Shown here: piece by piece, positions 4,942-56,658 of the stretch | Layout of the letters: each line of letters opens with the position of its first letter | Numbering within the stretch: position 1 is the stretch's first letter | Assembly: GCA_030272585.1 (NCBI GenBank) | Contig: BSYQ01000009.1 | Span: 1,674,001-1,738,000 of the forward strand | Length of the DNA: 64,000 nucleotides | Direction of reading: 5' to 3' | Source: Bryopsis sp. KO-2023 | Lineage: Eukaryota > Chlorophyta > Ulvophyceae > Bryopsidales > Bryopsidaceae | The notes under the pieces: generated by a model | Told to the model about the DNA's origin: nothing | The model's database searches: none | What the model saw: only the letters and a program-made list of their open reading frames with translations | Program-made: the position numbers and the translations under genes

Positions 4942-6323
4942 CCTCCTCGGTCGTCACCGGGATTTTCTGGCCGTTATCGTTCTTTTTGTTTCTTTTTATC
5001 GATCCATGTCACGCCGCTTTCCCCACCGCGGGCCATGGTTTGTTTACGAAGTTCCATGTGGTTTTGTTCGATCTGATACTTGGGATGCCGTGCGTTGGTG
5101 AATGTTTCTGATGATGGGATTCCTTGATGGGTCAGACATTTCCGTGCATTTCGGCGTTGTCTTTTGTCAAGAGAAACTGACAACGAGCCAAAACAAAAAA
5201 ACGTCTGGGAAAAGTAGCAACCCCTCCCGTGTTTTTTCTTGTTTGGTTTGTTGACCTATGAACAACGAGGCGATCCTCCACACAGCCACGATCTTACCCA
5301 GCATATTCATTAAGGAAATCACCATTGGGCTCAGCCCACCTCGAAACCTAAAACCAAAAAATAATTGGAAGAGATATGGAGGAATATGCGTCAAGGCAAT
5401 ATGAAACCTATGTCACCCTTTTTTTCAGTAAAGAACCAGAATAATCTGAATAAATGTTTGTTTGCTTGTTTGCGTCTATTGTGCACTGGCAGTTGGAGTG
5501 TTCAAGGTCCAGAAACAATTCACGTCATGAGATCTCGCAAATTTTCTTCTCTGTTCGACCCCCCCTCCCACAAAAAGAACAACCCTCAAAACCAAGCCAA
5601 ACAAAAAAACAAAGAAAGACGTCCCTTTCGTCTCCGCACCTGTTGTTGTTGTGCTTCTTTCTTTCATCACCAAAAATTTGAAGTCAACGTGTTCTTGAAA
5701 ATCCTCAACTGTGAAGCCTTAGAAATTGTGTGCTGGATGAAAATTCCACGTTTTTGATCTGAATCTTTATTGCAATTCCACAAAGATAAATATCAGTGTC
5801 GAATTAATTCGGGTTGAGATGTTTGATGGCTAGTCTTTGCAAAGTTCTTTTTATACACTGTCCGGTTGAAACCATCTTCCTGGATGAGGGATTCACCTTG
5901 GGTTGTTAAAATCAATTTGTTTGTTTGCTTTTTGTCTGGAACAAATAAGAAGTGCAGGTTTCTGTGTGTCTCAAGTGTCAGCATTCTGGCTTTCGTCTCG
6001 AGCAAAAGGGAAGCAGCCACAAAAAGAAAGGATAGAGTCCCGTGATGTCAGAGCTACATCAAGGCGACTATTGATTTATTCATGGATGTGTGGAGTGCCA
6101 ACCAATTGCAATCCAGCTGCGTGTCTGGTGTCTATCTATCGAGTCCTTCACTGACATCACACCTCAGTTACCTGTGGGTTCAAGGTAAGGTGCCACCTTA
6201 AACCCCCTTATGCTGAATCCCCCTCTTTCCACTCTGCATTAGATTTGAACATGAGAGCGCAAGATGTTAGAACCTGCTTTTTGGTCCCACATCAATTCTT
6301 GCTGCTACATTTTCATTCCACAT
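4942..6323. other. intergenic, left flank of the transposon nest
   Basis: A/T-rich, with homopolymer runs and one dispersed repeat copy (5516-5720). No gene could be supported. Confidence 0.5.
5516..5720 (+). repeat. dispersed repeat, copy 1
   Basis: About 200 bp that recurs in the same orientation at 63172-63325. Shared blocks include AATTCACGTCATGAGAT, AAATTTTCTTCTCTGT, GTCCCTTTC and CATCACCAAAAATTTG, separated by indels. It is noncoding, and its family is unknown; a short interspersed or foldback element is possible. Confidence 0.6.
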
Positions 6324-13716: not shown

Positions 13717-13775
13717 GTGCCTATTCGGTTTACAGCCAGTTGCTTTAACCTCTCCGGCTATCCGATGCGAGGAAA

Positions 13776-21982: not shown

Positions 21983-22598
21983 TGTAACGGTTGGTTATCG
22001 CAGCACTCGAGCTGGAACTACAAGAGTAGTTGCCATGCTTCCTGCAGTTGAAAAAGGGAAGGTTGCAAGAGTGCAACGTGTAGGAGCAGCGTGCGAGAGT
22101 GCGGCGTGTAGGAGTGCAGCGTGCAGCGGTGCAGCGTGCAGCGGTGGATGCAGCGTGCAGCGGTGGATGCAGCGTGCAGCAGTGCAGAGGTGCAGCGGTG
22201 CAGCGGTGTAGAGGTGCAGAGGTGGAGAGGTGCAGAGGTGCAGAGGTGCAGAGGTGCAGTAGTGCGACACCCTTGGAGTCACGACTACAACCAAGCTCGA
22301 TGGAGTTTGATGGATGATGATGTGGCAGCCATCAAAGTCGAGTTGTCAATTGGACGTGTGAGTTCTCGTGGAATAGGGGCACGTTCACAGTTGAGGTGGC
22401 AAGGAGATGTGTGAATTCCTAGTGAATAGTGACACGTCGACAGGAACAAGGGTTTGATGCGCTGTGGCGCTAGGGTATAAGAGTGTGGAAGGAAAAGGTC
22501 GTTGTATCTTCTTTATAACTTTATTCTTGTAAGGAAGTTCTATCTAACGAGACGCTTGAGGAAGGCACTCGTCCTCCTCTAGGAGGGCGAGGGGACCT
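21983..22598 (+). repeat. 5' LTR of element B (main part)
   Basis: Matches the start of 37657-38286. It includes a GCAGAGGTGCAG-type minisatellite (about 22090-22262). The last 22 bp lie beyond the nested Ty3 element, at 29855-29876. Confidence 0.92.
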
Positions 22599-28492: not shown

Positions 28493-29605
28493 AGACTCCT
28501 ACCAGAAAAATTCGAATTACATTGTAAGTGCGTTCAGTGTCACACTGTTCGACGTTTGCCACGACTGACGTCGCGCACAAACCACAGTCGAACTGGAAAC
28601 GACCTATTCTGTCACACACTCTGTCGACTTTTGCCACGACTGGCGTCGCGCGAAAGCGACAGGCGAACTTAAAACGACGTGGAGGTTAACGATTTCAAGG
28701 TACTCTCATCAAAATAAGAGCCCAATCGCGCCCCTGCAGTTGCCAAGAAGGCACACCGCCGACAAAAGAAAACCAATAGTCGCACCAAAACGAAGTCGCG
28801 TTTGGCGCCAGTACCACAGTCGACGAAAAACGACTGTCACCTCGCCAAAACGACGACCACTTTAGGTAAGTACCAAAATCGATTTCAACGCCAACAGCGT
28901 AACAAATCGACCTGCGTTACTCTTGTCGTTTCTCACACTTCAGAATTCGAATTCGAATTTGTCATTCCTGGCAAAAACTGACGACCCCTGTAGCCTTTTT
29001 CGACCCAACTACCGAGGCACCCAACCACCCTCTGGAAAAACGTCGAGCTAAGTCGACTAGCTTTAACAAAGCACGTCCAGAGTGCTGGCGACCTCGCAAG
29101 AAGTGGTCGAAACCCCAAAGAAAGTCGAGATCTCCACTCTCACACTTTCTGAAAATGGGATCTAAAGCTACAAACGTCAAGCGACCCTACAGAAACCTGT
29201 TCCGACACGGGCTAGCTTCTAAACGACTCTATACCACTACCCTGAGGTTCCCTACGACCTCTTTTCACGTCAACCGAACCGGACGACCTCCCACAAACAA
29301 ATCAAGAAATTCCAAAGGCCCTGTAAGACCCTTCCTCAACTTGGCCGACACGGGCGACCACTCACAACCAACTCGAAACACTTTTTTAAGGTCCTCTATG
29401 ACCTTCTTTCAAGCATACCATGGCGGACGACCGCTCACTACCAACGATCCCAAAGAAAAACAAAAATCTCAAAGGTAAGAGTAAGTCACCTTTACCCCAA
29501 AGCGCACACCTTCGCCAAGGGCGTTTCCTTACTCGACAAGAAGCGCTCCCTCCTTGTTGTCCTCCTTATCGTTTCCTTTTCCTTTCCCTTCACTCCGAAA
29601 CCAAA
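28493..29605 (-). other. leader of Ty3 element 2
   Basis: 1.1 kb between 5' LTR and gag-pol. It is rich in ACGAC/CGTTT-type motifs and no gene was supported. Confidence 0.6.
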
Positions 29606-37656: not shown

Positions 37657-38286
37657 TGTAACGGTTGGTTATCGCAGCACTCGAGCTGGAACTACAAGAG
37701 TAGTTGCCATGCTTCCTGCAGCTGAAAAAGGGAAGGTTGCAAGAGTGCAACGTGTAGGAGCAGCGTGCGAGAGTGCGGCGTGTAGGAGTGCAGCGTGCAG
37801 CGGTGCAGCGTGCAGCGGTGGATGCAGCGTGCAGCGGTGGATGCAGCGTGCAGCAGTGCAGAGGTGCAGCGGTGTAGAGGTGCAGAGGTGCAGAGGTGCA
37901 GAGGTGCAGAGGTGCAGAGGTGCAGTAGTGCGACACCCTTGGAGTCACGACTACAACCAAGCTCGATGGAGTTTGATGGATGATGATGTGGCAGCCATCA
38001 AAGTCGAGTTGTCAATTGGACGTGTGAGTTCTCGTGGAATAGGGGCACGTTCACAGTTGAGGTGGCAAGGAGATGTGTGAATTCCTAGTGAATAGTGACA
38101 CGTCGACAGGAACAAGGGTTTGATGCGCTGTGACGCTAGGGTATAAGAGTGTGGAAGGAAAAGGTCGTTGTATCTTCTTTATAACTTTATTCTTGTAAGG
38201 AAGTTCTATCTAACGAGACGCTTGAGGAAGGCACTCGTCCTCCTCTAGGAGGGCGAGGGGACCTTGAAAAAAGTAGCCTCGTTTCA
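37657..38286 (+). repeat. 3' LTR of element B
   Basis: 630 bp, TG...CA, preceded by a purine-rich tract and followed by the duplication GTGTG. Confidence 0.92.
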
Positions 38287-38291
38287 GTGTG

Positions 38292-39261
38292 CGTCCAACA
38301 GCACATTCCCTTGTATACGATGCTTGTGCCCTGGAAAGGAACTTCACGACATCACTAAAACACACCCGTTGCGCCGAGAAAATGATATGAACATCATCAT
38401 CGATGAAGCAAAAGCTCTGATTGATGCAAATTGTATTGGAAAAGCGTTTAGCTTGACAAAACGTCACTCTGTTTGGCCTCTATCAATTTCACTGAGCGGT
38501 TTCCGAATGTGTGATGCATACGGGTTGTGGGTGCCGGAGCGCCAACATCAATCAGATATTGGGATTTCCGTGTATATGATTGACTGGACACGGACATACA
38601 TTGAAGAAAATTATCCAAACGAAGTCGACGATATCTTGATATCGTTGAATACGAGGCAAGTACACTTCAGCAAATACAAATCACCTTGATATATCCATAA
38701 ATTCGTATCCATGTACTAATTTGATTTTTTTTTTAACTTCAAGGCTCAGAAAAATTCCGGTATATCCTGGATTGACGCTTCCAAAAAGTTTCACAAATGA
38801 TAAGCTTTCTTCTTCAAAACGACGTCACTTGATGTGGGTGTTGCCGTACCTACTCTCCGGGCTCCTTCTTCCCTTGGAATCCGTCTTCATCGCGTACGCT
38901 CGATGGGAACATCAGCGAGACCTTTCTGAACACACAAGGGAAAGTATCAACAAATTGCAAATGCTCGGGACTGTTTGGCAAAACGAAGCGAAAAAAAAGT
39001 TTCCCTTTGGAAATTTCAACACAATAAAAATGCATGATATGACACACTACCAAGACATGATAACAGAATTTGGGGGAACATGGATTGAAGCCACTCCGTA
39101 CGAAAAACTTCATATTGAATATTGCAAAAAACCATGGAGGGCGAGCAATAAACAAGCACACAGCTATAAGAAACAAATGGTCAGAAAAACTGAAAGGTTT
39201 GAGGTTGCTTCAAGGATTCCCACCTCACAAACACCTTCCCGGGCCGGACGCAGGATAATTC
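38292..39261 (+). CDS. Plavaka-type transposase, middle part (rest of exon 3, start of exon 4)
   Basis: Continues the gene from 21982 in the same frame. Exon 3 ends at 38655 and exon 4 starts at 38744. The intron donor is GCAAGT, so this is a GC-AG intron; the only nearby GT donor would break frame. Visible motifs are a CIRCLCPG zinc-ribbon-like pair, IPVYPGLTLPKSF, MHDMTHYQDMITEFG and EKLHIEYCKKPWRASN. The last two correspond to the conserved KLH...HY...I and E.LHI...K..W..SN blocks of Plavaka transposases. The reading stops at the KDZ element boundary after 39261. Confidence 0.82.
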
Positions 39262-39299
39262 CAAGAGGGGTTAACGGGCGCCGTAGGCGCCCGTTAACC
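39262..39299 (+). repeat. left end of element K with near-terminal hairpin
   Basis: The terminal repeat overlaps a perfect 14-bp inverted repeat with a 3-base loop (39269-39282 and 39286-39299; arm GGTTAACGGGCGCC). Only the outer GGGTTAAC part is shared with the right end. Confidence 0.8.
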
Positions 39300-39844
39300 G
39301 CCGGAAAGCACGCCTCTCCGCGGGGTCAATACCCGTCGCAGATTGGTTTTGTTGCAGCAGTCGGGTGTTCTGGATACGTGCAACCCGTGTGGCGACTGAC
39401 TATTCTGGTTTCGTCCCATCATCTCCATCTATCTATATATATGCCTACATACGCCTCATCATCGTTAACCAACGAACCTGAACATCCTCCCAAAGTCTGT
39501 AGTTCCCGTACACACGTCCGTCCGCACGTCTATGCTTGGCGAGTTTGTGATGTTTCGATGTTCTGATGTTCCGTCAGTCCGTTTAGGTGCCGCCTCAGCA
39601 AGCCCCCGTTATCGCTAGAAGACATCATTCAACGGACTGACGGACGGACGGGCATGGAAACTGGCACCAACGCCGGTCGCACGCCAAGGTCCTAGACATG
39701 GGAGTTTCGATCCCCGTGGATACGTCCGTCCGTCACTCCGTTTAGGTGCAACCAAGGCGCCCGTTGTTCGCCAGAAAAGATTTGCCTCATTACATAGACT
39801 CATTCTAGACCTAAATTAGTTCCTATCCCATCCCGTGCGAAAAC
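39300..39844. other. element K left subterminal region
   Basis: No gene. It contains two related blocks with CCGTTTAGGTGC (about 39570 and 39735) and several CGTCCGTC motifs, probably subterminal sites. Confidence 0.5.
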
Positions 39845-41465
39845 TTGTTGATATCGCCGAGGACACCCACGTCCCCGTTCACCCGTGTGTACGCGTGCCC
39901 GCCCTCCACCACCCGTACCCGTACCCGTCCCAAACGTGTCCACTCCCTCACTAAACTCGTTGGAAACTCCAGGGAGACTCTCCTCCCCGTCCACCCGTCT
40001 GTACGCGTGCCCCCCTCCTCCCCCACCCGTACCCCAGACCTCTCCACTGCCTCCGTGCGAAAACTTGTTGATATCGCCGAGGACACCCACGTCCCCGTTC
40101 ACCCGTGTGCCCGCCCTCCACCACCCGTACCCGTTCCCTTCCCAAATGTGTCCACTCTTTCACTAAACTCGTTGGAAACTCCAGGGAGACTCTCCTCCCC
40201 GTTCCCCCGTCTGTATGCGTGCCCGCCCTCCACCACCCGTACCCGTACCCGCACCCTTCCCAAACGTGTCCACTCCCTCACTAAACTCGTTGGAAAGTCC
40301 AGGGAGACTCTCCTCCCCGTCCACCTGTCTGTACGCGTGCCCCCCTCCTCCCCCACCCGTACCCCAGACCTCTCCACTGCCTCCGTGCGAAAACTTGTTG
40401 ATATCGCCGAGGACACCCACGTCCCCGTTCACCCGTGTGCCCGCCCTCCACCACCCGTACCCGTACCCTTCCCAAATGTGTCCACTCTTTCACTAAACTC
40501 GTTGGAAACTCCAGGGAGACTCTCCTCCCCGTTCCCCCGTCTGTATGCGTGCCCGCCCTCCACCACCCGTACCTGTACCCGCACCCTTCCCAAACGTGTC
40601 CACTCCCTCACTAAACTCGTTGGAAAGTCCAGGGAGACTCTCCTCCCCGTCCACCCGTCTGTACGCGTGCCCCCCTCCTCCACCACCCGTACCCCAGACC
40701 TCTCCACTGCCTCCGTGCGAAAACTTGTTGATATCGCCGAGGACACCCACGTCCCCGTTCACCCGTGTGCCCGCCCTCCACCACCCGTACCCGTACCCTT
40801 CCCAAATGTGTCCACTCTTTCACTAAACTCGTTGGAAACTCCAGGGAGACTCTCCTCCCCGTTCCCCCGTCTGTATGCGTGCCCGCCCTCCACCACCCGT
40901 ACCTGTACCCGCACCCTTCCCAAACGTGTCCACTCCCTCACTAAACTCGTTGGAAAGTCCAGGGAGACTCTCCTCCCCGTCCACCCGTCTGTACGCGTGC
41001 CCCCCTCCTCCACCACCCGTACCCCAGACCTCTCCACTGCCTCCGTGCGAAAACTTGTTGATATCGCCGAGGACACCCACGTCCCCGTTCACCCGTGTGT
41101 ACGCGTGCCCGCCCTCCACCACCCGTACCCGTACCCGTCCCAAACGTGTCCACTCCCTCACTAAACTCGTTGGAAACTCCAGGGAGACTCTCCTCCCCGT
41201 CCACCCGTCTGTACGCGTGCCCCCCTCCTCCCCCACCCGTACCCCAGACCTCTCCACTGCCTCCGTGCGAAAACTTGTTGATATCGCCGAGGACACCCAC
41301 GTCCCCGTTCACCCGTGTGCCCGCCCTCCACCACCCGTACCCATACCCTTCCCAAACGTGTCCACTCCCTCACTAAACTCGTTGAAAACTTCAGGGAGAC
41401 TCTCCTCCCCGTTCACCCGTCTGTACGCGTGCCCGCCCTCCACCACCCGTACCCGTGTGCGAACG
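39845..41465 (+). repeat. higher-order tandem array of 110-bp submonomers (220/330-bp units)
   Basis: The landmark TTGTTGATATCGCCGAGG recurs at spacings 220, 330, 330, 330 and 220 bp, with internal 110-bp subunits around CACTAAACTCGTTGGAAA and CAGGGAGACTCTCCTCCCC. Because 330 is a multiple of three, long frames stay open on both strands (the longest is 439 codons, 39845-41164). They are low-complexity by-products, not likely genes. The array lies just upstream of the DUF3987-like gene. Confidence 0.9.
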
Positions 41466-41551
41466 TGTTCACTGGATATCCGTCAAAACTCTGTGATGTC
41501 GTCATGGCAGGTCGGCGGCTATGTATACGTATACGCGGTACAAACCGCGAG

Positions 41552-41558
41552 TATATAA
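41552..41558 (+). promoter_or_regulatory. TATA-like box of the DUF3987-like gene
   Basis: TATATAA 46 bp before the ATG at 41604 and just after the tandem array ends. Confidence 0.45.
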
Positions 41559-41603
41559 TGTGCGTCTATCACGGCCAGAAAGAAGAACCTATTTTTCTTT
41601 TCT

Positions 41604-44287
41604 ATGGACTCTCAAGCTCCCGGGACTAAAGCGCCCTTCATGGTCGAAAACCCTGTGTTTGAAGGCTTGGACGAAGACCTGGACGAAGGCCTCCCAGACG
41701 AACCAGGGTTATCCGTGCATGTCTCCCATGAAGCACCCGACCAGGACGGACAAGTACCGGACGAGGAGGTTGTTGTCGAGGAGGAAGAGAGGCAGCCTTC
41801 CGACAACGTTTTGAGTATGCCGGCTGAGGAGAGGGACGCACTACTGAAGACTATTTTCCCTGAGTGCCTTGCAAGCCGCTTAAACCATGACGACGTCATG
41901 GGGACCACGGGGGATGTTTTTGGTTTTTCGAATCGTATTCCTTCGTGGAAGCGACTTTCGGAGAATTTCAATCTCCGACAGACTCTCGTTATGCGGTTTT
42001 TATGCGGAGACTCGGAGGGTCTAGGTGAAGTCGATGCACGCGATGTTCTGGGACCGGTCCTTGGTGGGTTTCTTGTCCACGTTGCTGAGGATGTTGGATC
42101 AAACTGGCCGGCGATGGCGGGAAGTTTCTTCTCCATATCGTCTTTCGCATTAGGGCCTAACTTGACCGTCGTCCCATCACGTTCCGGTCCTCTGTCCACG
42201 TTTGAACTACCATCCTTGTGGTGGTCGTGGACCTTAGCTCCCTCTGGCAGCAATAAGTCGGGGGTGCACAAATTCTTCTCTCCTGTCTTGAGGATGCTAG
42301 AGGCATGGATGAATTCTGCCGCGTACGGGAAGGCATCAGGGTACCGTGTCGTTAGAGACGAGGAAACTACGGGGAAGAAGGCGAGAGTGGATGTGGCTAA
42401 CGATGCCCGTGAACGCTTCAAGTCCTCCATGAGGATCAGGTGAGTCTCTATTTTGTTTTCGTGTGGAAATGCTGTCCGTATTCGTGTACACTTGTATTTT
42501 TGCGTTTCGTCTGTTTCGTGGACTTTCGTATCCGTTGTACACTAATTATATCCGTTTCGTTCAGGTGCCTGTCTTCGCATACTACTTGGGAGTCCCTTGG
42601 GGAAGAGCTGATCTGTTCGTTCGAACATTCGGTTGTGGACTACAAGGATGAGATGTTCCACCGCCTGGAACTCATGCAGCGGGGGACAGAGGTTAGCGGA
42701 CTCCTTCAGTTGCGTGAGGGTGGGGGACTGGACCGGGGGACCGTCACAAATGGTTTATGGCGGGGTCTCGACTCGTCGTATTTCTGTCTCGTGAGTTTCT
42801 GCCAGCCCGAGAAGGCGATGGCCTTTTTGCGTGGGGAACTGGATAGCGGGCTCGGCAACAAGATTTCGGTGACGTGTATGGCTAGAACCAATATATCTGT
42901 CAGGTCTCTTGTCGATAGGGCGGCGGCGGCCGTAGTGGATGACGACTCCGACAAAAGTCGGTCATATTATTTGGTCGGGAACGGAGAAGACAAGAATGAT
43001 TCCGTCAACAAGATCGAAGAAACGTACGCGTCCGCATGCGAGTGGAGCGAATTTTTGAAGTCTGCTGACTGCGCGACCCATTCCGTTTACGCCAACAAAG
43101 AAGGAGGAGGAAAGCGGGAAGTCGTCCACGCCCACACTCTTGGAGTTGTGGTGAAGGATGATAAAAGGGACGGGTGGGAAAAAAGGGATCCGGGAAACGG
43201 GAAGCCATCTCTGACCGCCTCCCAACGGAGGGTACTTCGGATCTTTGCACAGATGTGGGGTTATACTCATACCCGTGGGAGCGTTGAAAGCATGAACGTA
43301 CACCCAAAGCGTTTGTGCCTGTCCCCTGAGGCCTTTCGTTTGTACTGCAAGAGTTTCGACTGGATTCTTCATGAGGTGGCCGTCGGAATGAACTCTGGGC
43401 ACGCAACCGAAGTCGGCGAGTTGAGTAAAGGCCAGGGGGCAATTCTTCAACTATCGCTTTTGATACACTGCATGGAGCACTGTATATCGAAACCGTGTGA
43501 CGATACCCCACCCGCAATCGTCTCCGAGGAAACTGTTCGAAAAGCCATATCATTCTGGCTGTTTGGGTTGCTCCAAAAACACTTGCTGTTTGGGAACCGA
43601 ACCCTTCTGGCAAAATTCGGCAAGCATTTGTTTCGGGATGGAGGTGGATCAAGGGGGACGGCGACGGCTTCGGGGACGGGGATTACAGGACTTTCGGTGC
43701 CTGTTTCGTCTCCAAACGAGGTGATGAAAGATCTCATTCTTCCAAACCATCTGGATGGCGTGTTCGATGCGTGCAAGTTTGCACAGAAATCGCGATTTGT
43801 CCGCGATAATTCAGTTCGTTTCAGGCAATCGACTACGGAAATGACCGTTCATTTTGGTACGTTGACGATTGGGGTCTTCATCGAGAGCGTGAAGAAACTT
43901 TTCAAGGCCACGACCAACGGTCGTCGTCTGTTTATGATGAAGGACATCCCAGTTCTTCCATTAAATTCCAAGTTCAAGATCGGGACGAAGTCGATTATAG
44001 TCTCTGATAGAAAGCCTGGCCAGTTTAATGTGTCGGACATCGTTTTTTTGTTGATCGTTTGCTCTGTCGGGCACGTCGGAATTCCGCGCTTGGGGGACCT
44101 TAGGGGTTGCGGTGCTGGCAAATTTACCTGGGAGAGTTTGAGGGTCGAGGACCAGTCTGATGAATTTTATAATAAGTTACGTATTAACTTGGGAATTACC
44201 CCGGGGGAATGGTTGGACGATGAAGGGTTTGCCGACGCATTCAGGGGGGAAGATAGAGTTGATTTGGGTGCAATAGGTAATTTGTAA
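41604..44287 (+). CDS. DUF3987-like P-loop protein of element K
   Basis: Two exons, 41604-42439 and 42565-44287, joined by a 125-bp GT-AG intron (AG|GTGAGT ... TTCAG|G), giving 852 residues. The N-terminus is acidic and probably disordered. Then come blocks resembling DUF3987: a Walker-A-like LAPSGSNKSG, the QP block SFCQPEKAMAFLRGEL followed by GLGNK, and a helical LQLSLLIHCMEH segment followed by VSEETVRKAISFW. In phages and bacterial mobile elements DUF3987 proteins are predicted ATPases, often beside primase or replication functions. Here it may power replication or target handling of K; that is inference. It is well spaced between the 110-bp array and the 186-bp array. A genuine homology search is needed because I matched motifs only by memory. 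It could instead be a divergent P-loop family. Confidence 0.6.
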
Positions 44288-44432
44288 TCGTGCGGTCTGG
44301 GGTGGCAGGCGAGTGAGTCGTGGGTTTCAGTTCGTGAGGGGTGCTGCAGGATGGCGTTTCGAATACCCAGGCTGGGGTATATTATGGGGACTGAGTTCGC
44401 TGTTGTTTTGTAACGGTTTCTGTTTAATTCGA

Positions 44433-45005
44433 AGTTTCGAAGAGGTTCGGTTTTGACACACAGTTACAATGAAAGTGCCGCTCTTCTGCCGCTGAGTTTA
44501 ATTTATGGAGATGCATTAAATTGCTTTATAACGGAAAACCAATCGCGCTTCACTGGTGGTCGTTGCCTCTTTGTGTGCCGCTGTCTGTGCCGCCAAAAAG
44601 AGGCGGCGGCACGGTGAGGTTCGGTTTTGACACTCAGTTGCATTGAAAGTGCCGCTGTCTGTGCCTCTTTCTGTGCCGCCAAAAAGAGGCGGCGGCACGG
44701 TGAGGTTCGGTTTTGACACACAGTTGGATTGAAAGTGCCGCTCTTTTGCCGCTGAGTTTAAATTGTATTAAACATTAAATATGCATTAAATTGTTTTATA
44801 ACGGAAAACCAATCGGGCTTCACTGGTGGTCGTTGCCTCTTTATGTGCCGCTGTCTGTGCCTCTTTCTGTGCCGCCAAAAAGGGGCGGCGGCACGGTGAG
44901 GTTCGGTTTTGACACTCAGTTGCATTGAAAGTGCCGCTCTTTTGCCGCTGAGTTTAATTTATGGAGATGCATTAAATTGTTTTCAACCGAAAACCAATTT
45001 TAAAC
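44433..45005 (+). repeat. 186-bp tandem array, first block
   Basis: About three partly truncated copies of the unit described at 49919-51174, around GTGAGGTTCGGTTTTGACAC and AAAGTGCCGCTCTTTTGCCG. Each contains a GCCGCC-AAAAAGA-GGCGGC stem-loop. It separates the DUF3987-like gene from the transposase gene. Confidence 0.88.
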
Positions 45006-45146
45006 CTTAAACGCCTTTAACGGTGACAGAACATCCCCCGAGTTGTGCAAGGAAATTACTGCAAAACCCAGCTTCCGCGGCCCTGTACGGTCGGCTTACA
45101 TGCCGTCCAAGGACCATTAGAATGGGCGGTACGGTACACTTGGTTC

Positions 45147-45157
45147 ATATATATATG
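45147..45157 (+). promoter_or_regulatory. TATA-like box of the KDZ transposase gene
   Basis: Alternating TATATATATA about 95 bp upstream of the ATG at 45250. Confidence 0.35.
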
Positions 45158-45249
45158 TTGTATCGAAGTACTTGTAAACAGTATCCTTTCAGTCCGTCCA
45201 GATCGTTGAGAGTTCCTATGAAAAACAAACAGTAGCCGTTTCAGGAATA

Positions 45250-47798
45250 ATGAGTTCTCGAGAGCTTGCTGCAAGCGAGCAGCTGACACAATCCCGCAAG
45301 TATCTTCGTCTAGCGCTACAAGAGTATTGTGGTGATGGTGCAAATGTCGGACGAACATGGAAGTATTGGGAGCAGTATGTTCGTCTTGGGAGGAACGACC
45401 CGCATACCATGATAATACTGAAAGAGACCGCCGTGCACATGAACCATGATTGGTCTGTGATTGAAAGAGGCCTGAAGTGTGTTGCTGCTTTTGTGGACGT
45501 CCCGACCCCCAACGAAATGGTATTGGCGTCTACCCCACTTACCAACGGCTACGTGTCCCCAAAGGTAAACTTGATTCTATTAGTCCCGTTTCTTTACTTG
45601 AGTGCACAGGTGCATTAACACCTGGCTGGTACCAACCCCGTGCGTGTAGATATCCAGGTGCGTGGTGGACGCGTGCGGTGGGACGGTGAATCCCGTCATT
45701 CACAGACGGGACGCGTGGAAGTATTCCCTGTCCGAGTGCAACCGAGTGACCCTGTTCAGGAAGGAATGTGAAGCATGTGGGACGGTGTATATGCTTCATG
45801 GATACTTCAAGGACCACAACAGAAAATCATTTACGCCTTATCGGGGTTCCGATGTGAATGAATTTTTGCAAACGAGTGTTCGCGGGGAAACGCTTATACA
45901 CCACGATCTTCTGAAGAGTTTTGAAGGGTTTTTTATGCGGGCAAGGGCTGGAATGGATCCATTCGTCGATTTTGTGAACTATTCAAGAGGCGCCCTATCG
46001 CGTTTCGAAAGCACCGAAGATTACAAGCTCCAGAGAACGAACAGAACGCAACAGTCTCCCGTGGAAGAACGACGCCGGCGAAGGCACACGGACAGAAACC
46101 AGCTGTCTAGACACAGGTTCATCGAGGGCTGGCTGTTATGGAAGGCGTTGGAGATGTTGCGGAAGGTATTCGGCGAGGAACCTCTATGCGTACCCCAAAA
46201 TGTGGACGAACTAGTTGCAGTGGCGCACCCCCATATTTTCCGTTATCTACTACGGGCTTCACATGACCACCCTCTTAGATGCCGAGATTCGAACTGTGGA
46301 AAAGCGATTATTATCGACGGAAACGCTAAACTTCATCGAATGAGGTGCTTACACAGAGGAGAAGATGCACTCGGGGACCCCAAAGGTTTCCATAGGTAAG
46401 CGTGTGCATTTCCCACGATCTAAAGCGTTTCACAGTTTTGAGAACGTTTGAGTTTTCGTCACACTTCATCTTGGATTCACCAACACCACTTTCACTAGTT
46501 TTTGTTTTGGTCACAGATGTCTTGGTGGGTACTGTTCGTCGTCTCCAGTCCGCGGGATGAATGGCTTCTGTTCGACGCATTTTGGAACGGCGGAGGGTGC
46601 ACCAGACACGACCGGTATTTGTACTGATGATGAAGGACGTTCGTATGTTTCTTCGGCTGATTCGGGAATTGAAGAGGAGCAGGAAATGGTTGAGGCGGAC
46701 ATCTCTCAGGCTATCTACCAAAGAACCAGATCGAAGAGTCAGGGACTCGTTGAACTCGAAGACGACATGTACGTGGTACAAGAAATCCTTTCAGCGAGGA
46801 AGGTTAAATCGAAAGTCTTGGTCACCGTGAAGTGGGCCGGGTACGAAGATCCCACCGAGGAACCAATCGAAAACCTGTTCCCTGAGGAGCTCCAGGCAGC
46901 TGCCATGACAATACTCGCTTGTGGCGCTATAACGAAGGACACAAAAGCGGTGGTAAACAAGTCTTCAATCTCACAAAGACAACGAGTCGAAGTGTTGTCG
47001 AAGTTTGCGGAGGCAATGAAAATGTTCAGGGAGGCCATGAAGAAAAAAAATGGTGACACAGGGCAGGTGCATGCTGATATGAATATCGAATTACCAAATG
47101 ATTTAAGGACAAGGCACGCTGGGTCCCATAAAAAAAGGAACAACGTTGGGCGAGATGGCAAGAAGAAAACGAAGCGGATTTTGGAGATCGAGAGAACCAT
47201 ACGCGTATTGACGACGTCTGATGTCGGTGATGAAGAGGATAGACGTCGAGTAGAGTCGCTTCCAGAGCTTTGTTCCATAAGGGACTTTTCGCACGTCGGA
47301 AAAGGTCGAACCGCAGGAACATTGTTTGCCTTTCATCACTGCGGTTTCCCCTTCCCACCCATAGAACTGATTGGGAGCGAAAGTCTGACGCAAGTTACGC
47401 ACTACCTGATGACGTTGTTCAAGGCACACCAGCCACGTTATGAAGGAAAGACGGGCGACAAGCTCTTCGTGGCGTATGACAATGGATGTCATTTAAAGGC
47501 TTTTCTCGACAACCCCATTCGGAAGGAGTCGGCGCCTGCGATGCTGAGAACTTTAGCGGAGCAGACAGTGGTGGTGGTCGATCACTTCCACTTCGTGACA
47601 CATCATACTGGAAAAAAGTGTCTACTGGAGTCTAATCCGTACCGGTACCCGGATTTGGAGGAGGTGAACACTTCAATTGCGGAGGAGCGGTTCAGCGTTA
47701 TATCGTCTTTAAAGAGTGTTTTCAAAGGCATGAATGAAAACCGGATGAACTTTTTTCTGCTGGCCCTGACGGACATGTTGCCCCGGTTTTCTTTGTAA
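45250..47798 (+). CDS. KDZ-family transposase with embedded chromodomain
   Basis: Three exons, 45250-45564, 45650-46395 and 46517-47798, all GT-AG and in frame, giving 780 residues. The cysteine-rich N-terminal half includes a CEACGTVYMLHGYF block and, across the exon 2/3 junction, LHRMRCLHRG ... CLGGYCSSSP ... GMNGFCSTHFG. Residues about 437-482 form a chromodomain (MYVVQEILSARKV ... VTVKWAGYEDPTEEP). The C-terminal third has KDZ-type blocks: KLFVAYDNGCHLKAFL, VVVDHFHFVTHH, and EVNTSIAEERFSVISSLK followed by a helical tail. KDZ transposases (Kyakuja-Dileera-Zisupton) are DDE-type enzymes of large eukaryotic transposons. This one should mobilise element K. The usual WEP of the chromodomain is EEP here, so histone binding may be weakened. 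The stop overlaps a GTAAGT donor-like site and a local duplication, so a further short exon cannot be excluded. Confidence 0.75.
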
Positions 47799-47870
47799 GT
47801 AAGACTTTATGAACTTTTATCTGGTGGCCCTGACGGACATGTTGCCCCGGTTTTCTTTGTAAGACTTTAT
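47742..47870 (+). repeat. 64-bp tandem duplication at the transposase 3' end
   Basis: The last coding segment (ATGAACTTTTTTCTGC ... CCCCGGTTTTCTTTG) is repeated with two or three changes directly after the stop, from about 47808. Confidence 0.85.
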
Positions 47871-48036
47871 GAATCCGAAGGTCGAGTAAAAAACAAACAA
47901 CAGAAGAACGGAAAAACACCCAAGTTTAAAAAGTGAATGTAGCAATATATTAACAAACCCCAAAGTTAAAACAATGAATAAAAGAGAAGAAGAAAGAAGG
48001 GGAAATAAAGAAACGGAAAGACCCCAAAATACCCGC

Positions 48037-49641
48037 TCACTGCTGACCCTGTTGGTCGCTTTTTTTAATTTTCTTCGCCCCCCTCGGGACTTTGGGTGGC
48101 GCCAGCTTCGATTCTCGGTAGTACAGCTCGTTCCAGTCGCTGACCACCTTTTTCAAGGACCCTCCCCACTTTCGCCCGACTTCCTTTTTGTAACAGCACG
48201 GACACACTTCGAACGGCTTATCGAAGGGCTGAACAGGACACACCTCGCCACCCGTGCTACCACGCACGTTTGTCAGCAACTCCCAGTCCGTGGCCCATTT
48301 CCCGTGTTCAGCGTGATACAGGGCTGCCCTTTCAGCGATCCGCAGGCCTGCGTTGTGCGTGACGCACGTCAAGTGCCGCTGACAGGAAATAATTCTGTCA
48401 TAATCATCACGGGGAGGTCGCGTCGACGCGTTGCAGCATGGGCATATTGGATTCGGAGTAGAGCGAGGCTTAGAGTCGTCATCACAAGTCGTACGAGTCC
48501 TTTTTTTCGTCCTCGTTCCACGCGCCTCCTCATTCTCCGTCCTCGTGGGAACGTCTGTGTCTGTTCGTCCAACGTCTTGGTGTTCCCCACTTTCCAGATC
48601 GTCCATTCCCCCCTTGTCCGTCCTTGTGTCAACGTCTGTGTCCGTTCGTCCAACATCCTGATGTCCCCCAGTTTCCATATCGTCCTCGTTCCCTCCACCC
48701 AGATCGTCCATGCCCCCTCCACCCAGATCATCCGTGCCCCCTCCACCCAGATCGTCCGTGGCCCCTCCACCCAGATCGTCGGTGCCCCCCAGCAATGTAG
48801 ACCCAACATCACCTCCAGCCGATTCTGGAACAATTGACGGCCGAACTTTTGGCGGCGGTGGAAACAGCGGCGCTGGATTTGGCGGAGCGACCCGTCGGCT
48901 TGAACCCTTGTCCACAACTCTTGTTTGGGAGATTGAACCATCAGGCGTGTTGACACGATCAGACGCTGTGTCGGGACGACTTCCTCCAGGCGCTGAATCT
49001 TCGTTGAGGGTCAGTATGACGCGAACAGGTTTTGGGGCTTGCACTGGCCCAATCGGTTCTTCCACCACTTCGTGGATCATCTTGAACGCACTGTTTGTCA
49101 CTCTCCGGAAATCTTCCTTCATCGTCTCCGCCACCGTTTTCATCCTCTGAAGATGCGCCCAGAGGTCGTGGGACTGCCGATTCGCAACCGACACTGCCAT
49201 GACATGGTCTCTGAGTTGTCTTCTCAGCATTTCATTTGTTCTCTGGAGTTCGTCCGTTCTGTTTTCCCCCCCCATTCTTTCCGCCGCCTCCAACTTTGAT
49301 TCCGCCTCCTCCAACTTAGTTTCCACCTCCTCCAACTTAGTTGCCACCTCCTCCAACTTTCCTTCCGCCTGAACCGCCTTTCCTTCCGCCGCCTCCAACT
49401 TTCTTTCAGCCTCAACCGCCCTTCCTTCCGCCGCCTCCAACATTCTTTCAGCCTGAACCGCCTTTCCTTCCGCCGCCGCCAACTTTCCTTCAGCCTCAAC
49501 CGCCTTCCTTTCCGCCTCAACCGCCTTTCTTTCCGCCTCAACCGCCTTTCTTTCCGCGGCCGCCGCCTTCTCTGTGGCTTCAGCTTTTTCACGATCAGTG
49601 ACTTCCTTCATCATCGCCATAACATCTTGAATACTCGCCAT
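48037..49641 (-). CDS. coiled-coil protein with CxxC/CxxHxxC/CxxC motif (element K gene 3)
   Basis: Start chosen at MASIQDVMAMM (49641); the frame stays open 13 residues further, to 49680. It encodes 534 residues: a very regular coiled coil made of AERKAVEAERKAVEAE-type repeats (about residues 20-130), a less regular helical part, a proline/glycine linker with repeated TDDLGGGG units, acidic TDTDV repeats, then a C-terminal cysteine module CPCC - SCQRHLTC - CPCC. The module's spacing matches the protein of 51371-52906. The function is unknown. A zinc-binding module behind an oligomerising coil suggests a DNA- or transposase-binding factor; that is inference. It runs convergent to the transposase gene. 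Confidence 0.7.
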   Translation of the reverse strand: MASIQDVMAMMKEVTDREKAEATEKAAAAERKAVEAERKAVEAERKAVEAEGKLAAAEGKAVQAERMLEAAEGRAVEAERKLEAAEGKAVQAEGKLEEVATKLEEVETKLEEAESKLEAAERMGGENRTDELQRTNEMLRRQLRDHVMAVSVANRQSHDLWAHLQRMKTVAETMKEDFRRVTNSAFKMIHEVVEEPIGPVQAPKPVRVILTLNEDSAPGGSRPDTASDRVNTPDGSISQTRVVDKGSSRRVAPPNPAPLFPPPPKVRPSIVPESAGGDVGSTLLGGTDDLGGGATDDLGGGGTDDLGGGGMDDLGGGNEDDMETGGHQDVGRTDTDVDTRTDKGGMDDLESGEHQDVGRTDTDVPTRTENEEARGTRTKKRTRTTCDDDSKPRSTPNPICPCCNASTRPPRDDYDRIISCQRHLTCVTHNAGLRIAERAALYHAEHGKWATDWELLTNVRGSTGGEVCPVQPFDKPFEVCPCCYKKEVGRKWGGSLKKVVSDWNELYYRESKLAPPKVPRGAKKIKKSDQQGQQ

Positions 49642-49918
49642 TGTGTTACTGTGTGTTTTGTGTGTTTTGTGTTTGGTCAACGGGTTTCAAAGGCAGGGAC
49701 GGTCGGTAACAACAAAAACAAGAATGAACCATGAAGGTCGCCGGGGTTTTTATTCCGCTAAGTCTAGTACGCTTTCTAGTTGAAGGCCGTTTGTGACGGG
49801 ACGCTACACAACAACCAATGAACCAATTTTACAGGTTGTCCAGTTTTGATCGAAGTATTGAAATTTGTTTGTTTGTTTGATTGATTTCAGTGAAAACTGT
49901 GTGATTGACGACAAGGCA

Positions 49919-51174
49919 GGTGGGCTTCACTGGTGGTCGTTGCCTCTTTGTGTGCCGCTGCCTGTGCCTCTTTCTGTGCCGCCAAAAAGAGGCGGCGGCA
50001 CGGTGAGGTTCGGTTTTAACACCCAGTTACAATGAAAGTGCCGCTCTTTTGCCGCTGAGTTTAATTTATGGAGATGCATGAAATTGTTTTATAACGGAAA
50101 ACCAATCGCGCTTGACTGGTGGTCGTTGCCTCTTTGTGTGCCGCTGCCTGTGCCTCTTTCTGTGCCGCCAACAAGAGGCGGCGGCACGGTGAGGTTCGGT
50201 TTTGACACACAGTTCCAATGAAAGTGCCGCTCTTTTGCCGCTGAGTTTAATTTATGGAGATGAATTAAATTGTTTTATAACGGAAAACCAATCGCGCTTC
50301 ACTGGTGGTCGTTGCCTCTTTGTGTGCCGCTGCCTGTGCCTCTTTCTGTGCCGCCAAAAAGAGGCGGCGGCACGGTGAGGTTCGGTTTTGACACACAGTT
50401 GCAATGAAAGTGCCGCTCTTTTGCCGCTGAGTTTAATTTATGGAGATGCATGAAATTGTTTTATAACGGAAAACCAATCGCGCTTCACTGGTGGTCGTTG
50501 CCTCTTTGTGTGCCGCTGCCTGTGCCTCTTTCTGTGCCGCCAAAAAGAGGCGGCGGCACGGTGAGGTTCGGTTTTGACACACAGTTGCAATGAAAGTGCC
50601 GCTCTTTTGCCGCTGAGTTTAATTTATGGAGATGCATGAAATTGTTTTATAACGGAAAACCAATCGCGCTTCACTGGTGGTCGTTGCCTCTTTGTGTGCC
50701 GCTGCCTGTGCCTCTTTCTGTGCCGCCAACAAGAGGCGGCGGCACGGTGAGGTTCGGTTTTGACACACAGTTCCAATGAAAGTGCCGCTCTTTTGCCGCT
50801 GAGTTTAATTTATGGAGATGAATTAAATTGTTTTATAACGGAAAACCAATCGCGCTTCACTGGTGGTCGTTGCCTCTTTGTGTGCCGCTGCCTGTGCCTC
50901 TTTCTGTGCCGCCAAAAAGAGGCGGCGGCACGGTGAGGTTCGGTTTTGACACACAGTTGCAATGAAAGTGCCGCTCTTTTGCCGCTGAGTTTAATTTATG
51001 GAGATGCATGAAATTGTTTTATAACGGAAAACCAATCGCGCTTCACTGGTGGTCGTTGCCTCTTTGTGTGCCGCTGCCTGTGCCTCTTTCTGTGCCGCCA
51101 ACAAGAGGCGGTGGCACGGTGAGGTTCGGTTTTGACACACAGTTCCAATGAAAGTGCCGCTCTTTTGCCGCTAA
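49919..51174 (+). repeat. 186-bp tandem array, main block
   Basis: Nearly seven head-to-tail units; GTGAGGTTCGG recurs at 50189, 50375, 50561, 50747, 50933 and 51119, exactly 186 bp apart. Two variants alternate irregularly (CCGCCAACAAGAGG with TTCCAATG, or CCGCCAAAAAGAGG with TTGCAATG; order A B B A B A). Each unit has a GC-rich stem-loop and an AT-rich ATAACGGAAAACCAATC part. It lies between genes 3 and 4 of element K. Confidence 0.95.
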
Positions 51175-51370
51175 TTGTCATTTCACTTGATGAAGGCGAC
51201 GAGCGAAAAGACTCTGAGGAGCAGTGTCAGCATTGAAACAACGCAGTTTTGGCCTCAAAACGCACGCTCTTTTTTTCGCTCTCCGCTTTTTTTTGAACGG
51301 TTGCTGCCTGTCGCTGGTTGGGTGTGTGTGTGTGGTTGTGAGAGAGAGAGTAAGAGCGTGCGTGTGCGGG

Positions 51371-52906
51371 ATGGACGCATTGAAAAAAGAAAATGAACGA
51401 TTGAGGGCAGAGGTGGAGAAATGGAAAAGAAGGGCAACAAAGGAGAGGAGGAATTTGAAGAGGATCCAAAAGTCGGTGATGGAGACGCTGGACGAGGAGG
51501 ATTGGACGGAAGAGGAGGAAGAGGAACGTTGGGAAGGGGGGGCGGATATGGATGAATTCCAGGAGGGTGGGGACACAGAGGGTCCGAGCAGAGATAGGAC
51601 TTGGGCCGATTTTTTGGTCCGGCTCCGGTCCGGTCCGGTTACGGTCGGGTTACGGTCACCGTACTACGGCCGTAATTCCGTACCGTAACCGGAGTAATAT
51701 GCTGTTTTTACGGTACGGAACAGGTACGCTATAGCTACGGCAGGCCCTAACTCATCGTGAAGTAGTGTGGTTCAGTGCTAAAGCGTTAGGCTGCAGTTTG
51801 TAGGGTCGCAGGTTCGAATCCCCCTGGGTTCCTTTGGAATCGCGGGACCCCGGGGGGTCACTTTCTACGGTTTACGGTTGGTACGGCCGTTACGGTCATT
51901 ACGGTCCGGTACGGAGCGGTACGGAGCGGTACGGAGCTACGGTTACGGCCGTAAAAGTACGATTTTCCGACGAAAATTGTACTCCGGTTACGGTCCGGTT
52001 ACGGCGTTACGGTACGGTTACGGTGACCGTAACCGTAAAGTCCTATCACTGGGTCCGAGCAGACGTCAGAAACGGACACGGGGATCCGAGACGGAGACGG
52101 GGGCGGAGGAGGAGGCGGAGGCGGAGCTACCGATAAGGCGGAGGGGATTGACAGGGAAGGAGCCGTCAAGGAGACGGAAAAGAGCCCGCAAGGACACGCG
52201 GCCGCACCAGCCGAGGCGCACCCCGGACACCCCATGTATCACCCCGGCTGCTTGCATCTTTTGCAAGAAGGGTGAATCGGACAGGCCGGCGGGGGGCAGC
52301 TTCAACGGCATGGCCGTGAAGTTCTGCGACGCTCACATCGTTTGTGAGAATGCCCTCTGCCGGGACAAGTTCTGGCTGACCCAGACACTCGAGGTCACGC
52401 CAACGAAGACTGTGCGCCGCGCGTTCTTCCCCGAGGCCATGGCAGCACCGAGAATCGGAGTGCACGAGCCGCCGTTCTGCCTCCTTTGCGAGAGGTCTCC
52501 GATCCCACAAACCCGCCGCCTTGCAAACCAGATCTCAAAGATCTACAGGGAGAAGGGGAGAGCGATGGAGATCAGGAAGGTGGGGATGGTGGTGGGAGGG
52601 GATCCACTTGTGGATCCGAAAACTCTACCGGGTGTTTTTTTCACCGTTGGGCAGGGGAATGAGCCAGAGGGGGGTCAGCCAGAGGGGGGTCAGCCAGAGG
52701 GGGGTCAGCCGGGGGAGGGGGGGGAGGCACAGGGAGGTCAGCCGGGGGAGGGGGGTCAGCCAGAGGGAGGTCAGCCGGGGGAGGGGGGGGAGGCACAGGG
52801 AGGTCAGCCGGGGGAGGGGGGTCAGCCAGAGGGAGGTCAGCCGGGGGAGGGGGGGGAGGCACAGGGAGGTCAGCCGGGGGAGGGGGGGGAGGCAGGCGGG
52901 AGTTAG
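51371..52906 (+). CDS. coiled-coil protein with CxxC/CxxHxxC/CxxC motif (element K gene 4), interrupted by a MITE
   Basis: Starts MDALKKENERLRAEVEKWKR, a short coiled coil, followed by a very acidic stretch (EEDWTEEEEEERW), a basic RRRKRARK region and a cysteine module CIFCKK - FCDAHIVC ... ALC - FCLLCE that matches the spacing of the protein at 48037-49641. The C-terminus is a 22-residue glycine/glutamine/proline repeat encoded by a 66-bp minisatellite. A 463-bp hAT-type MITE plus an 8-bp duplication (471 bp, a multiple of three) sits at codon 73-74. The frame resumes after it, but the MITE contains in-frame stops, so the full 354-residue product needs the MITE to be absent or spliced out. 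The function is unknown. Confidence 0.65.
51589..52051 (+). mobile_element. hAT-type MITE inside element K gene 4
   Basis: 463 bp with inverted ends CAGAGATAGGACTT and CAGTGATAGGACTT (one mismatch in 14) and a perfect 8-bp duplication GGTCCGAG (51581-51588 and 52052-52059). CAGNG ends and 8-bp duplications are diagnostic of hAT transposons. There is no coding capacity. The body is built from TTACGGT/ACCGTAA motifs arranged so that left and right halves can pair, with a tRNA-like centre. Confidence 0.88.
51762..51832 (+). other. tRNA-Cys-like sequence inside the MITE
   Basis: Contains a B-box-like GGTTCGAATCC and an A-box-like region, and a CTGCAGT loop that would place GCA as anticodon. Stem pairing is poor, so it is a tRNA-derived (SINE-like) stretch and not a working tRNA gene. 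Confidence 0.5.
52658..52903 (+). repeat. 66-bp coding minisatellite
   Basis: GGAGGCACAGGGAGGTCAGC recurs every 66 bp (about 52722, 52788, 52854), encoding 22-residue repeats such as GEGGQPEGGQPGEGGEAQGG at the end of element K gene 4. Confidence 0.9.
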
Positions 52907-53131
52907 CTAAGGGGGGGGGGACTTCATAATTGAATTTTATGATTAATGACTGATTGAATGAAAAATTGAAATATTATTTTTGTAACCAAGGTTGGTTCGT
53001 TTGTTCTGTTGGCTTGTTAATTCCGCTGATCAGTTTTATTTCATTTTTATCATAAATCAAACGGCAACCCAGTGTCGCGTCGACACGAACACGCAATGGT
53101 AGGGGCTTCCAACAGCCAACCACCTGAACAC

Positions 53132-53333
53132 AAACTTCGTGCCGCCGCCTCTTTTTGGCGGCACAGAAAGAGGCACAGACAGCGGCACATAAAGAGGCAA
53201 CGACCACCAGTGAAGCCTGATTGGTTTTCCGTTATAAAACAATTTAATGCATCTCCATAAATTAAACTCAGGGGCAAAAGAGCGGCACTTTCATTGTAAC
53301 TGGGTGTTAAAACCGAATCTCACCGTGTGATTG
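53132..53333 (-). repeat. inverted single copy of the 186-bp unit
   Basis: Reverse complement of the array unit (GTGCCGCCGCCTCTTTTTGG ... AAACCGAATCTCACC). With the block at 49919-51174 it brackets gene 4 as an inverted pair. Confidence 0.92.
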
Positions 53334-53584
53334 ACTGACGTCGTTGCAGACACTTGGGACTCCAACAAACGAACACAATTAAATAATATAGCGCCACAGG
53401 CACGCTAAAAAGCATCTTCCAACTAGCATAACCATATATATATATCCTCCAACTACACCGGTTATGTCCACCTGTTATTTCGTACACGCAGTCCCCCCTC
53501 AAACCTTGCCCTGCACAGACACGACGTCACATCCTCCGAAGACCCTGGCTGACTCAACCTATCAAAACTCCACCTATAGAAACC

Positions 53585-53911
53585 ATGGCTCCCCTGTTCT
53601 ACCAACTCTGGAAAATGGATTTGAACGGCTTCCTCGAACAACTGCGACACGAACTCGCCCGTGCGCTCGCAGCATACCGGCGATTACGGGAAGCGAGGGA
53701 GGGCTTCGAGGGTGCGGAGGCGATTGCCGCCGCCAGGCGACAATGCACGGAGTGCGATGACCGGCTTATCGGCGTGATAGGCATCGTCCTCTCGCTGTTG
53801 CCCGCAAACGCCCCCGCGAGACCCACTCTCCGACGCCTGTTCCTCCGCTACGTTCGCAGGCACTCTGTTCTCCGCAATCATGTGCCGCGGCGGTGGAATC
53901 GACGAGGCTAA
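53585..53911 (+). CDS. small basic protein (element K gene 5), unknown function
   Basis: 108 residues starting MAPLFYQLWKMDLNGFLEQL and ending HVPRRWNRRG. It is predicted mostly helical, arginine-rich, with one CTEC pair. Local GC content is high and codon use looks coding. A TATATATATA box lies about 140 bp upstream (53443-53452). A run of about 25 A follows the stop by 7 bp, which could be a trace of a reverse-transcribed copy. No family was recognised; a spurious frame is possible. Confidence 0.45.
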   Translation: MAPLFYQLWKMDLNGFLEQLRHELARALAAYRRLREAREGFEGAEAIAAARRQCTECDDRLIGVIGIVLSLLPANAPARPTLRRLFLRYVRRHSVLRNHVPRRWNRRG

Positions 53912-54440
53912 ATCTGAAAAAAAAAAAAAAAAAAAAAAAAATCCTTTTCTTTATCAAACTGGGGTTCAGTGCATCCTGAAGGACATTATGGATTGGTAGA
54001 TCCGTTGTGGTGAACGACTTGTTCAATTGGTGTTGGAGAAATTCTAAAGCCAGAAATAATGGCAGTAGATATATTAAAACCTACGGAGAGGTGTTTGGAC
54101 GGACTTTACAATGAGGTATCTTTGGGAAGAAAGGGAGAGTGTTTCGGTGTTTTTTTCTTGCCAGAAGGGCTCATGGATCCTACGTATTTTTGGAGAACGT
54201 TATTGTTTGGTACTGAGTTGCGATGGGAACAAAACAAACAAACACAGACACATGTAATCATTGATTGACTCATTGGTTTGGTATGCCTTCCGCTCTTAAA
54301 AAAACAAAATAAACCATAGTTCCAATTACAAACAATCAATACCAAAACAATCAATTTGTCTGTCCGTAAGGAAAAAGAAATCGCCACCAACAACACAAAA
54401 ACGTTTCGTTTCATAACCTCCTTCGTTTCGCTCGTTTCGT
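53912..54440. other. spacer with poly-A run
   Basis: Opens with about 25 A (from about 53917). A 69-codon frame at 54059-54268 (starts MAVDILKPTERCLDGLYNEV) shows no family and is not called. Confidence 0.45.
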
Positions 54441-56445
54441 TCATTCAGTGTGGACGGAGACACGGACGGACGGGGAGGCGGGTTTCGTTTGCTGGCCTCC
54501 CTAGTCTGATCGACTTGTGATTTTCACTGGTTTCCTTCATTGAGTGTGGACGGAGACACGGACGGGCGGGGAGGCGGGTTTCGTTTGCTGGCCTCCCTCG
54601 TTTTGTTTTTTTAGTGTGGACGGAGACACGGGCGGACGGGGAGGCGGGTTTCGTTTGCTGGCCTCCCTAGTCTGATCGACTTGTGATTTTCACCTGTTTC
54701 CTTCATTGAGTGTGGACGGAGACACGGGCGGACGGGGAGGCGGGTTTCGTTTGCTGGCCTCCCTCGTCTGATCGACTTGTGATTTTAACTCGTTTCGTTC
54801 ATTGAGTGTGGACGGAGACACGGGCGGACGGGGAGGCGGGTTTTGTTTGCTGGCCTCCCTCGTTTCGTTCATCCAGTGTGGGCGGAGACACGGGCGGACG
54901 GAGAGGCGGGTTTCGTTTCCTGGCCTCCCTCGTTCCGTTCATCCAGTGTGGGCGGAGACACGGGCGGACGGAGAGGCGGGTTTCGTTTGCTGGCCTCCCT
55001 CGTTTTGTTCTTTCAGTGTGGACGGAGACACGGGCGGGCGGGGAGGCGGGTTTCGTTTGCTGGCCTCCCTAGTCTGATCGACTTGTGATTTTCACCTGTT
55101 TCCTTCATTGAGTGTGGACGGAGACACGGGCGGACGGGGAGGCGGGTTTTGTTTGCTGGCCTCCCTCGTTTCGTTCATCCAGTGTGGACGGAGACACGGG
55201 CGGACGGGGAGGCGGGTTTTGTTTGCTGGCCTCCCTCGTTTCGTTCATCCAGTGTGGGCGGAGACACGGGCGGACGGAGAGGCGGGTTTCGTTTCCTGGC
55301 CTCCCTAGTCTGATCGACTTGTGATTTTCACCTGTTTCCTTCATTGAGTGTGGACGGAGACACGGGCGGACGGGGAGGCGGGTTTTGTTTGCTGGCCTCC
55401 CTCGTTTCGTTCATCCAGTGTGGACGGAGACACGGGCGGACGGGGAGGCGGGTTTTGTTTGCTGGCCTCCCTCGTTTCGTTCATCCAGTGTGGGCGGAGA
55501 CACGGGCGGACGGAGAGGCGGGTTTTGTTTGCTGGCCTCCCTCGTTTCGTTCTTTCAGTGTGGACGGAGACACGGGGGGGCGGGGAGGCGGGTTTCGTTT
55601 GCTGGCCTCTCTCGTCTGATCGACTTGTGATTTTAACTCGTTTCGTTCATTGAGTGTGGACGGAGACACGGACGGGCGGGGAGGCGGGTTTCGTTTGCTG
55701 GCCTCCCTCGTTTTGTTCTTTCAGTGTGGACGGAGACACGGGCGGACGGAGAGGCGGGTTTCGTTTGCTGGCCTCCCTAGTCTGATCGACTTGTGATTTT
55801 CACCTGTTTCCTTCATTGAGTGTGGACGGAGACACGGGCGGACGGGGAGGCGGGTTTTGTTTGCTGGCCTCCCTCGTTTCGTTCATCCAGTGTGGACGGA
55901 GACACGGGCGGACGGGGAGGCGGGTTTTGTTTGCTGGCCTCCCTCGTTTCGTTCATCCAGTGTGGACGGAGACACGGGCGGACGGGGAGGCGGGTTTTGT
56001 TTGCTGGCCTCCCTCGTTTCGTTCATCCAGTGTGGGCGGAGACACGGGCGGACGGAGAGGCGGGTTTCGTTTCCTGGCCTCCCTCGTTTCGTTCATCCAG
56101 TGTGGGCGGAGACACGGGCGGACGGAGAGGCGGGTTTCGTTTGCTGGCCTCCCTCGTTTCGTTCTTTCAGTGTGGACGGAGACACGGGGGGGCGGGGAGG
56201 CGGGTTTCGTTTGCTGGCCTCTCTCGTCTGATCGACTTGTGATTTTAACTCGTTTCGTTCATTGAGTGTGGACGGAGACACGGACGGGCGGGGAGGCGGG
56301 TTTCGTTTGCTGGCCTCCCTCGTCTGATCGACTTGTGATTTTAACTCGTTTCGTTCATTGAGTGTGGACGGAGACACGGACGGACGGGGAGGCGGGTTTC
56401 GTTTGCTGGCCTCCCTAGTCTGATCGACTTGTGATTTTCACGTGA
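54440..56445 (+). repeat. 70/96-bp satellite array of element K
   Basis: GTGTGGACGGAGACACGG recurs about 25 times at spacings of 70 or 96 bp (54448, 54544, 54614, 54710, 54806, 54876, 54946, 55016 and on). The longer unit carries an extra 26-bp piece around AGTCTGATCGACTTGTGATT. Larger blocks are themselves duplicated (for example 55344-55630 resembles 55816-56242). Open frames through it are repeat artefacts. Confidence 0.95.
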
Positions 56446-56650
56446 ATCCCCTTCAGTCCGACTTCCGATTATTCCGTTTATTTATATTTGGTTTAGGGTC
56501 GCGTTAGCCGCCGCATCGACCGCGCGACCGGCGTGCGTGTTAGACCGGCGCGACCGGCGTGCGTGTTAGACCGGCGCGGCGACCGCGACCGCGACCGGCG
56601 GACAAAGAGGGGGTAAACCCGCGGGGACCAGGTCCTGTTAACCCTTCCTC
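56446..56650 (+). repeat. right end of element K
   Basis: GC-rich. It has a duplicated CGCGACCGGCGTGCGTGTTA block (about 56522 and 56550) and ends CCTGTTAACCCTTCCTC, the inverted counterpart of the left end, followed by the duplication GATAATTC. Confidence 0.75.
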
Positions 56651-56658
56651 GATAATTC

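Follow-up and report, generated by a model that had tools for sequence, protein, structure and literature searches.

Transposons of the KDZ superfamily share a KDZ transposase and have been described in fungi and fish as Zisupton, Dileera and Kyakuja; Zisupton and Dileera produce 8-bp target-site duplications and Kyakuja 7-bp duplications with CA..TG ends, and accessory genes are known in these elements, a TET/JBP dioxygenase being the documented case (PMC12730594). The KDZ1, KDZ2 and KDZ3 elements of Cryptococcus, whose mobility has been demonstrated, measure 9-11 kb and combine a KDZ core with a CxC1 cysteine cluster and terminal repeats of 139-241 bp, with duplications of 8 bp in KDZ1 and 4-8 bp in KDZ2 and KDZ3 (PMC12810828). 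In algae, giant KDZ transposons such as KDZ-1_Ec32 of Ectocarpus reach a maximum of 30.3 kb, many giant transposon families there carry additional genes, and a 31.7-kb KDZ element transposes in Chlamydomonas (cited in PMC12477816); Kyakuja-3_cRei is reported as a KDZ insertion in a Chlamydomonas gene (PMC10828217). Extra genes on giant DNA transposons are frequent and of unknown value. The element described here, K, spans 17,389 bp (positions 39262-56650) of a 64,000-nucleotide stretch, the window, on contig C9 of the 91-Mb, 28-contig genome of Bryopsis sp. KO-2023, a siphonous, giant-celled green alga; this genome was the sequence set searched. K is very probably a cut-and-paste transposon of the KDZ group, about 17 kb in length, whose transposase, DUF3987 gene and zinc/coiled-coil genes move as one unit. 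The initial annotation had read it as a multigene KDZ transposon, and this is supported overall, the underlying observation being confirmed.

As had been claimed, K is bordered by a perfect 8-bp duplication, GATAATTC, which abuts the element exactly on both sides. Further copies with the same ends and duplications, which the initial annotation had proposed to look for, were sought with 439 bp from the left end of K and 251 bp from its right end, and then with end patterns allowing up to three mismatches. The left-end 29-mer matched 10 times genome-wide and the right-end 30-mer nine times, with no match for either reversed-pattern control, and these ends pair into nine elements, seven long (C9, the window, 17,389 bp; C12, 20,078; C10, 16,667; C4, 16,126; C8, 9,978; C5, 16,801; C11, 17,094) and two miniature (569 and 568 bp). 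All nine are flanked by perfect 8-bp duplications, each of a different sequence. Their ends are near-identical but not identical, the window's right end having one mismatch to the query and the left end of the C7 miniature two. A single left end on C4 (about C4:2582804-2582807) had no right partner in the pattern search; it starts with CATGAGG, is 94% alike to K over 81 bp and possibly belongs to a related miniature family. Empty sites were tested directly with a 263-nt query made by joining the flanks without K, through which an open frame is read, and uninterrupted matches were found at C8:2283959-2284221 (100%), C8:2247092-2247354 (100%) and C16:743731-743993 (99%).

The 8-bp duplications at nine of nine elements are as in the Zisupton and Dileera branches of the KDZ superfamily and do not fit Kyakuja, from which K also differs in its CA..TC ends. 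The terminal repeats are imperfect and about 17 bp long, with 13 of 17 terminal positions in agreement by eye and the core GGGTTAAC common to both ends. Read by eye, each end contains a palindromic module; the left one is predicted to form a strong hairpin (-20.1 kcal/mol, z -5.9), and folding of the right one gave no hairpin (z 0.17). Like the Cryptococcus elements (PMC12810828), K has a KDZ core and a cysteine cluster, both putative in K, but its undeleted copies are 16-20 kb long, its terminal repeats are far shorter, its cysteine cluster is CxC5-like, and it adds a putative chromodomain and further genes. With the giant elements of Ectocarpus and Chlamydomonas, K shares a probable place among the KDZ elements of algae, a length above 10 kb, extra genes, nested insertions and non-autonomous relatives mobilised in trans, but it differs in its short GGGTTAAC end modules, and the passages on those elements in PMC12477816 mention neither DUF3987 nor paired zinc/coiled-coil genes. 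The TET/JBP gene documented in PMC12730594 is absent among the Pfam matches of K. The initial statement that no KDZ element is known with this gene set met no counterexample in searches of an open-access library: no paper was found there that joins KDZ and DUF3987, DUF3987 and a fungal transposon, or Kyakuja and a chromodomain, and none of the papers listed on Bryopsis, genomes and transposable elements is, judged by title, concerned with nuclear transposons of Bryopsis.

The initial annotation assigned K a chromodomain KDZ transposase. In the window all three relevant Pfam scores fall below their curated cut-offs (KDZ, PF18758, 20.5 against 26.6 bits; Chromo 20.1 against 25.1; CxC5 20.9 against 26.9). 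The sole database match of the transposase is the metagenomic protein P0002 (E 5.7e-12, with 36% identity across 40% of the query), which itself exceeds the KDZ cut-off with 39.9 bits. The AYDNGCH and AEERF motifs align with P0002, and to the eye this protein appears to carry something like a chromodomain at the corresponding position ahead of its second catalytic motif; Pfam reported none there. The chromodomain match of K falls after the first catalytic motif and ahead of the second. We take IIIDGNAK, AYDNGCH and AEERF to fit the D-D-E order of the KDZ family, with a putative catalytic role. A genome-wide Pfam KDZ scan returned only two other weak matches and also missed K's own copies, and therefore it cannot exclude other KDZ genes; these two matches (C1:4714233 and C6:5261518) score identically at 21.7 bits, below the cut-off, and perhaps represent a second KDZ family. 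In the longest copy, on C12, the KDZ gene is split at the equivalent of 46624-46631 by a 1,305-bp hAT-like miniature with CAGACCTGGGC ends and an 8-bp duplication.

The low direct KDZ score of K, and the fact that the C8 copy and both miniatures lack KDZ yet have perfect duplications, would suit a platform moved in trans by an unrelated transposase, with the KDZ gene as another passenger. This is improbable: the Pfam matches of the eight K open reading frames (ORFs) scanned include no transposase-like domain other than KDZ, the transposase 3' ORF is open in five of the seven long copies, and 8-bp duplications are what is reported for Zisupton and Dileera (PMC12730594) and for Cryptococcus KDZ1 (PMC12810828). 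The size of K and its ATPase gene might also suggest an endogenous virus or Polinton-like element. This is very unlikely, as no capsid, polymerase, protease or integrase appears among the Pfam matches of the scanned ORFs, no DUF3987 or KDZ relative was confirmed when viral contigs were scanned by pattern, and the ends and 570-bp miniature derivatives suit a cut-and-paste transposon. An assembly artefact, or a plain tandem-repeat region misread as a transposon, is conceivable given large satellite arrays that are hard to assemble, but can be set aside almost entirely in view of seven dispersed copies on different contigs with different duplications and the three empty sites.

The presence of a DUF3987-like ATPase inside K, reported initially, is borne out by a Pfam DUF3987 (PF13148) score of 28.2 bits for the window ORF at 42413-44287, over the cut-off of 27. 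Its sole database match among 7,996 candidates scored is BSKO_12188 of Bryopsis sp. KO-2023, which scores 39.4 bits and as an annotated relative adds 45025-45117 to the gene model. A degenerate P-loop-like APSGSNKS was named by eye at 42237, and helicase activity is putative. With ratios of nonsynonymous to synonymous substitution (dN/dS) of 0.21 and 0.14, the gene is kept by selection. DUF3987 helicase-like domains likewise serve as ATPase domains on bacterial and archaeal mobile elements, where they are fused to primases (PMC5862659); the K protein differs in having no primase match and in adjoining a DDE (Asp-Asp-Glu)-type transposase. One zinc/coiled-coil gene of K has many relatives beside Gypsy pol genes of Bryopsis retrotransposons. 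Those Ty3/Gypsy elements with a third ORF are long terminal repeat (LTR) retrotransposons with the gene on the pol strand, whereas in K the gene adjoins the KDZ transposase on the opposite strand. The occurrence of one accessory protein family in both settings hints that transposon classes have exchanged or share it, in an alga with its nuclei in one common cytoplasm. MuB, TnsC and IstB are partners of prokaryotic transposases and would offer a broad analogy for such a role of the DUF3987 protein. We give a probability of roughly one in three to the reading that K is a eukaryotic cut-and-paste transposon with its own DUF3987 helicase/ATPase as working partner of its transposase, and with a zinc/coiled-coil family common to Gypsy elements of the same nucleus, such that class I elements and class II elements alike would use one accessory toolkit in the coenocyte, perhaps in anti-silencing. 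The K copies, empty sites and selection tests all come from one assembly, and therefore the function of the extra genes becomes testable.

Table 1. Features of element K (window positions).
Feature	Position	Strand	Remarks
Target-site duplication, left copy	39254..39261	+	GATAATTC
Left end	39262..39299	+	CAAGAGGGGTTAAC and 14-bp-arm hairpin; palindromic module GGGTTAAC-N17-GTTAACC
Left tandem array	39833..41456	.	118/212/330-bp units
DUF3987 ATPase/helicase-like gene	41640..44155	+	exon 1 about 41640-42443, exon 2 about 42566-44155
86-bp-unit array	44574..44875	.	near C5/C11 identity break
Transposase 5' ORFs	45178..46399	+	CxC5-like cysteine cluster (sub-threshold); putative first catalytic Asp codon 46316, IIIDGNAK
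Transposase 3' ORF	46599..47798	+	chromodomain 46770-46880, KDZ core 47448-47759, both sub-threshold
Putative catalytic residues of 3' ORF		+	second Asp 47478 (AYDNGCH); Glu 47682/47685 (AEERF); by eye
Part of K	48037..49641	-	dN/dS 0.15, p 0.007
186-bp-unit array	49924..51172	.	6.7 copies, 97% matches
Part of K	51371..52906	+	junction read directly only in C12 and C11
Nested 459-bp repeat	51593..52051	.	tRNA-like B box, about 13-bp duplication; not counted as element proper
Small basic ORF, 108 aa	53585..53911	+	in 7/7 long copies
Right tandem array	54431..56438	.	70/96/166-bp units
Right end	56611..56650	+	module GGGTAAAC-N18-GTTAACCC, terminal TTCCTC
Target-site duplication, right copy	56651..56658	+	GATAATTC

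In unique sequence, with gaps excluded, mismatches to the window number 3 in 10,883 aligned positions for C12, 12 in 10,877 for C4, 14 in 10,900 for C10 and 17 in 6,524 for C8, as against 416 in 10,811 for C5 and 435 in 10,697 for C11. The differences in C5 and C11 cluster in the part left of about 44,600, where identity to the window is roughly 80-90% except in the outermost 138 bp of C11 (98.6%); to the right it is about 97-100%, and in unique sequence the last 5 kb of C5 matches the window about as closely as the main-group copies do there. Two left-hand types are therefore present on near-identical right-hand parts, an arrangement that points to exchange between copies by recombination or conversion.

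The initial annotation also held that removal of K restores a Plavaka frame. An open frame is indeed restored in the joined flanks, but the Plavaka identity of the host is only partly shown: it is assigned because of a Pfam Plavaka match (82.5 bits) at 20584-21279, 18 kb upstream, with no such match in either flanking ORF, the joined ORF or 11 other upstream ORFs, and no Pfam match of any kind in the flanking ORFs. An identical tandem-repeat unit occurs at 22064-22125 and 37738-37799, and the Gypsy pol gene between them (23264-28498) possibly belongs to an LTR element that is also nested in this Plavaka-like host. Another Ty3/Gypsy pol, with a chromodomain, lies at 9160-13881 on the minus strand, followed downstream by another coiled-coil-like ORF (4291-4953, minus strand). 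The small basic protein proposed for K has its ORF in every long copy, but with four nonsynonymous and no synonymous changes its coding status is unproven. By eye, the consensus units of the 186-bp and 86-bp arrays have sequence in common. The nested 459-bp repeat has 10-bp inverted ends, and ARAGORN called no tRNA in it; a 94% alike copy lies elsewhere in the C10 element (C10:305486-305953), and by eye a part of the repeat can be made out within a Gypsy ORF (L069).
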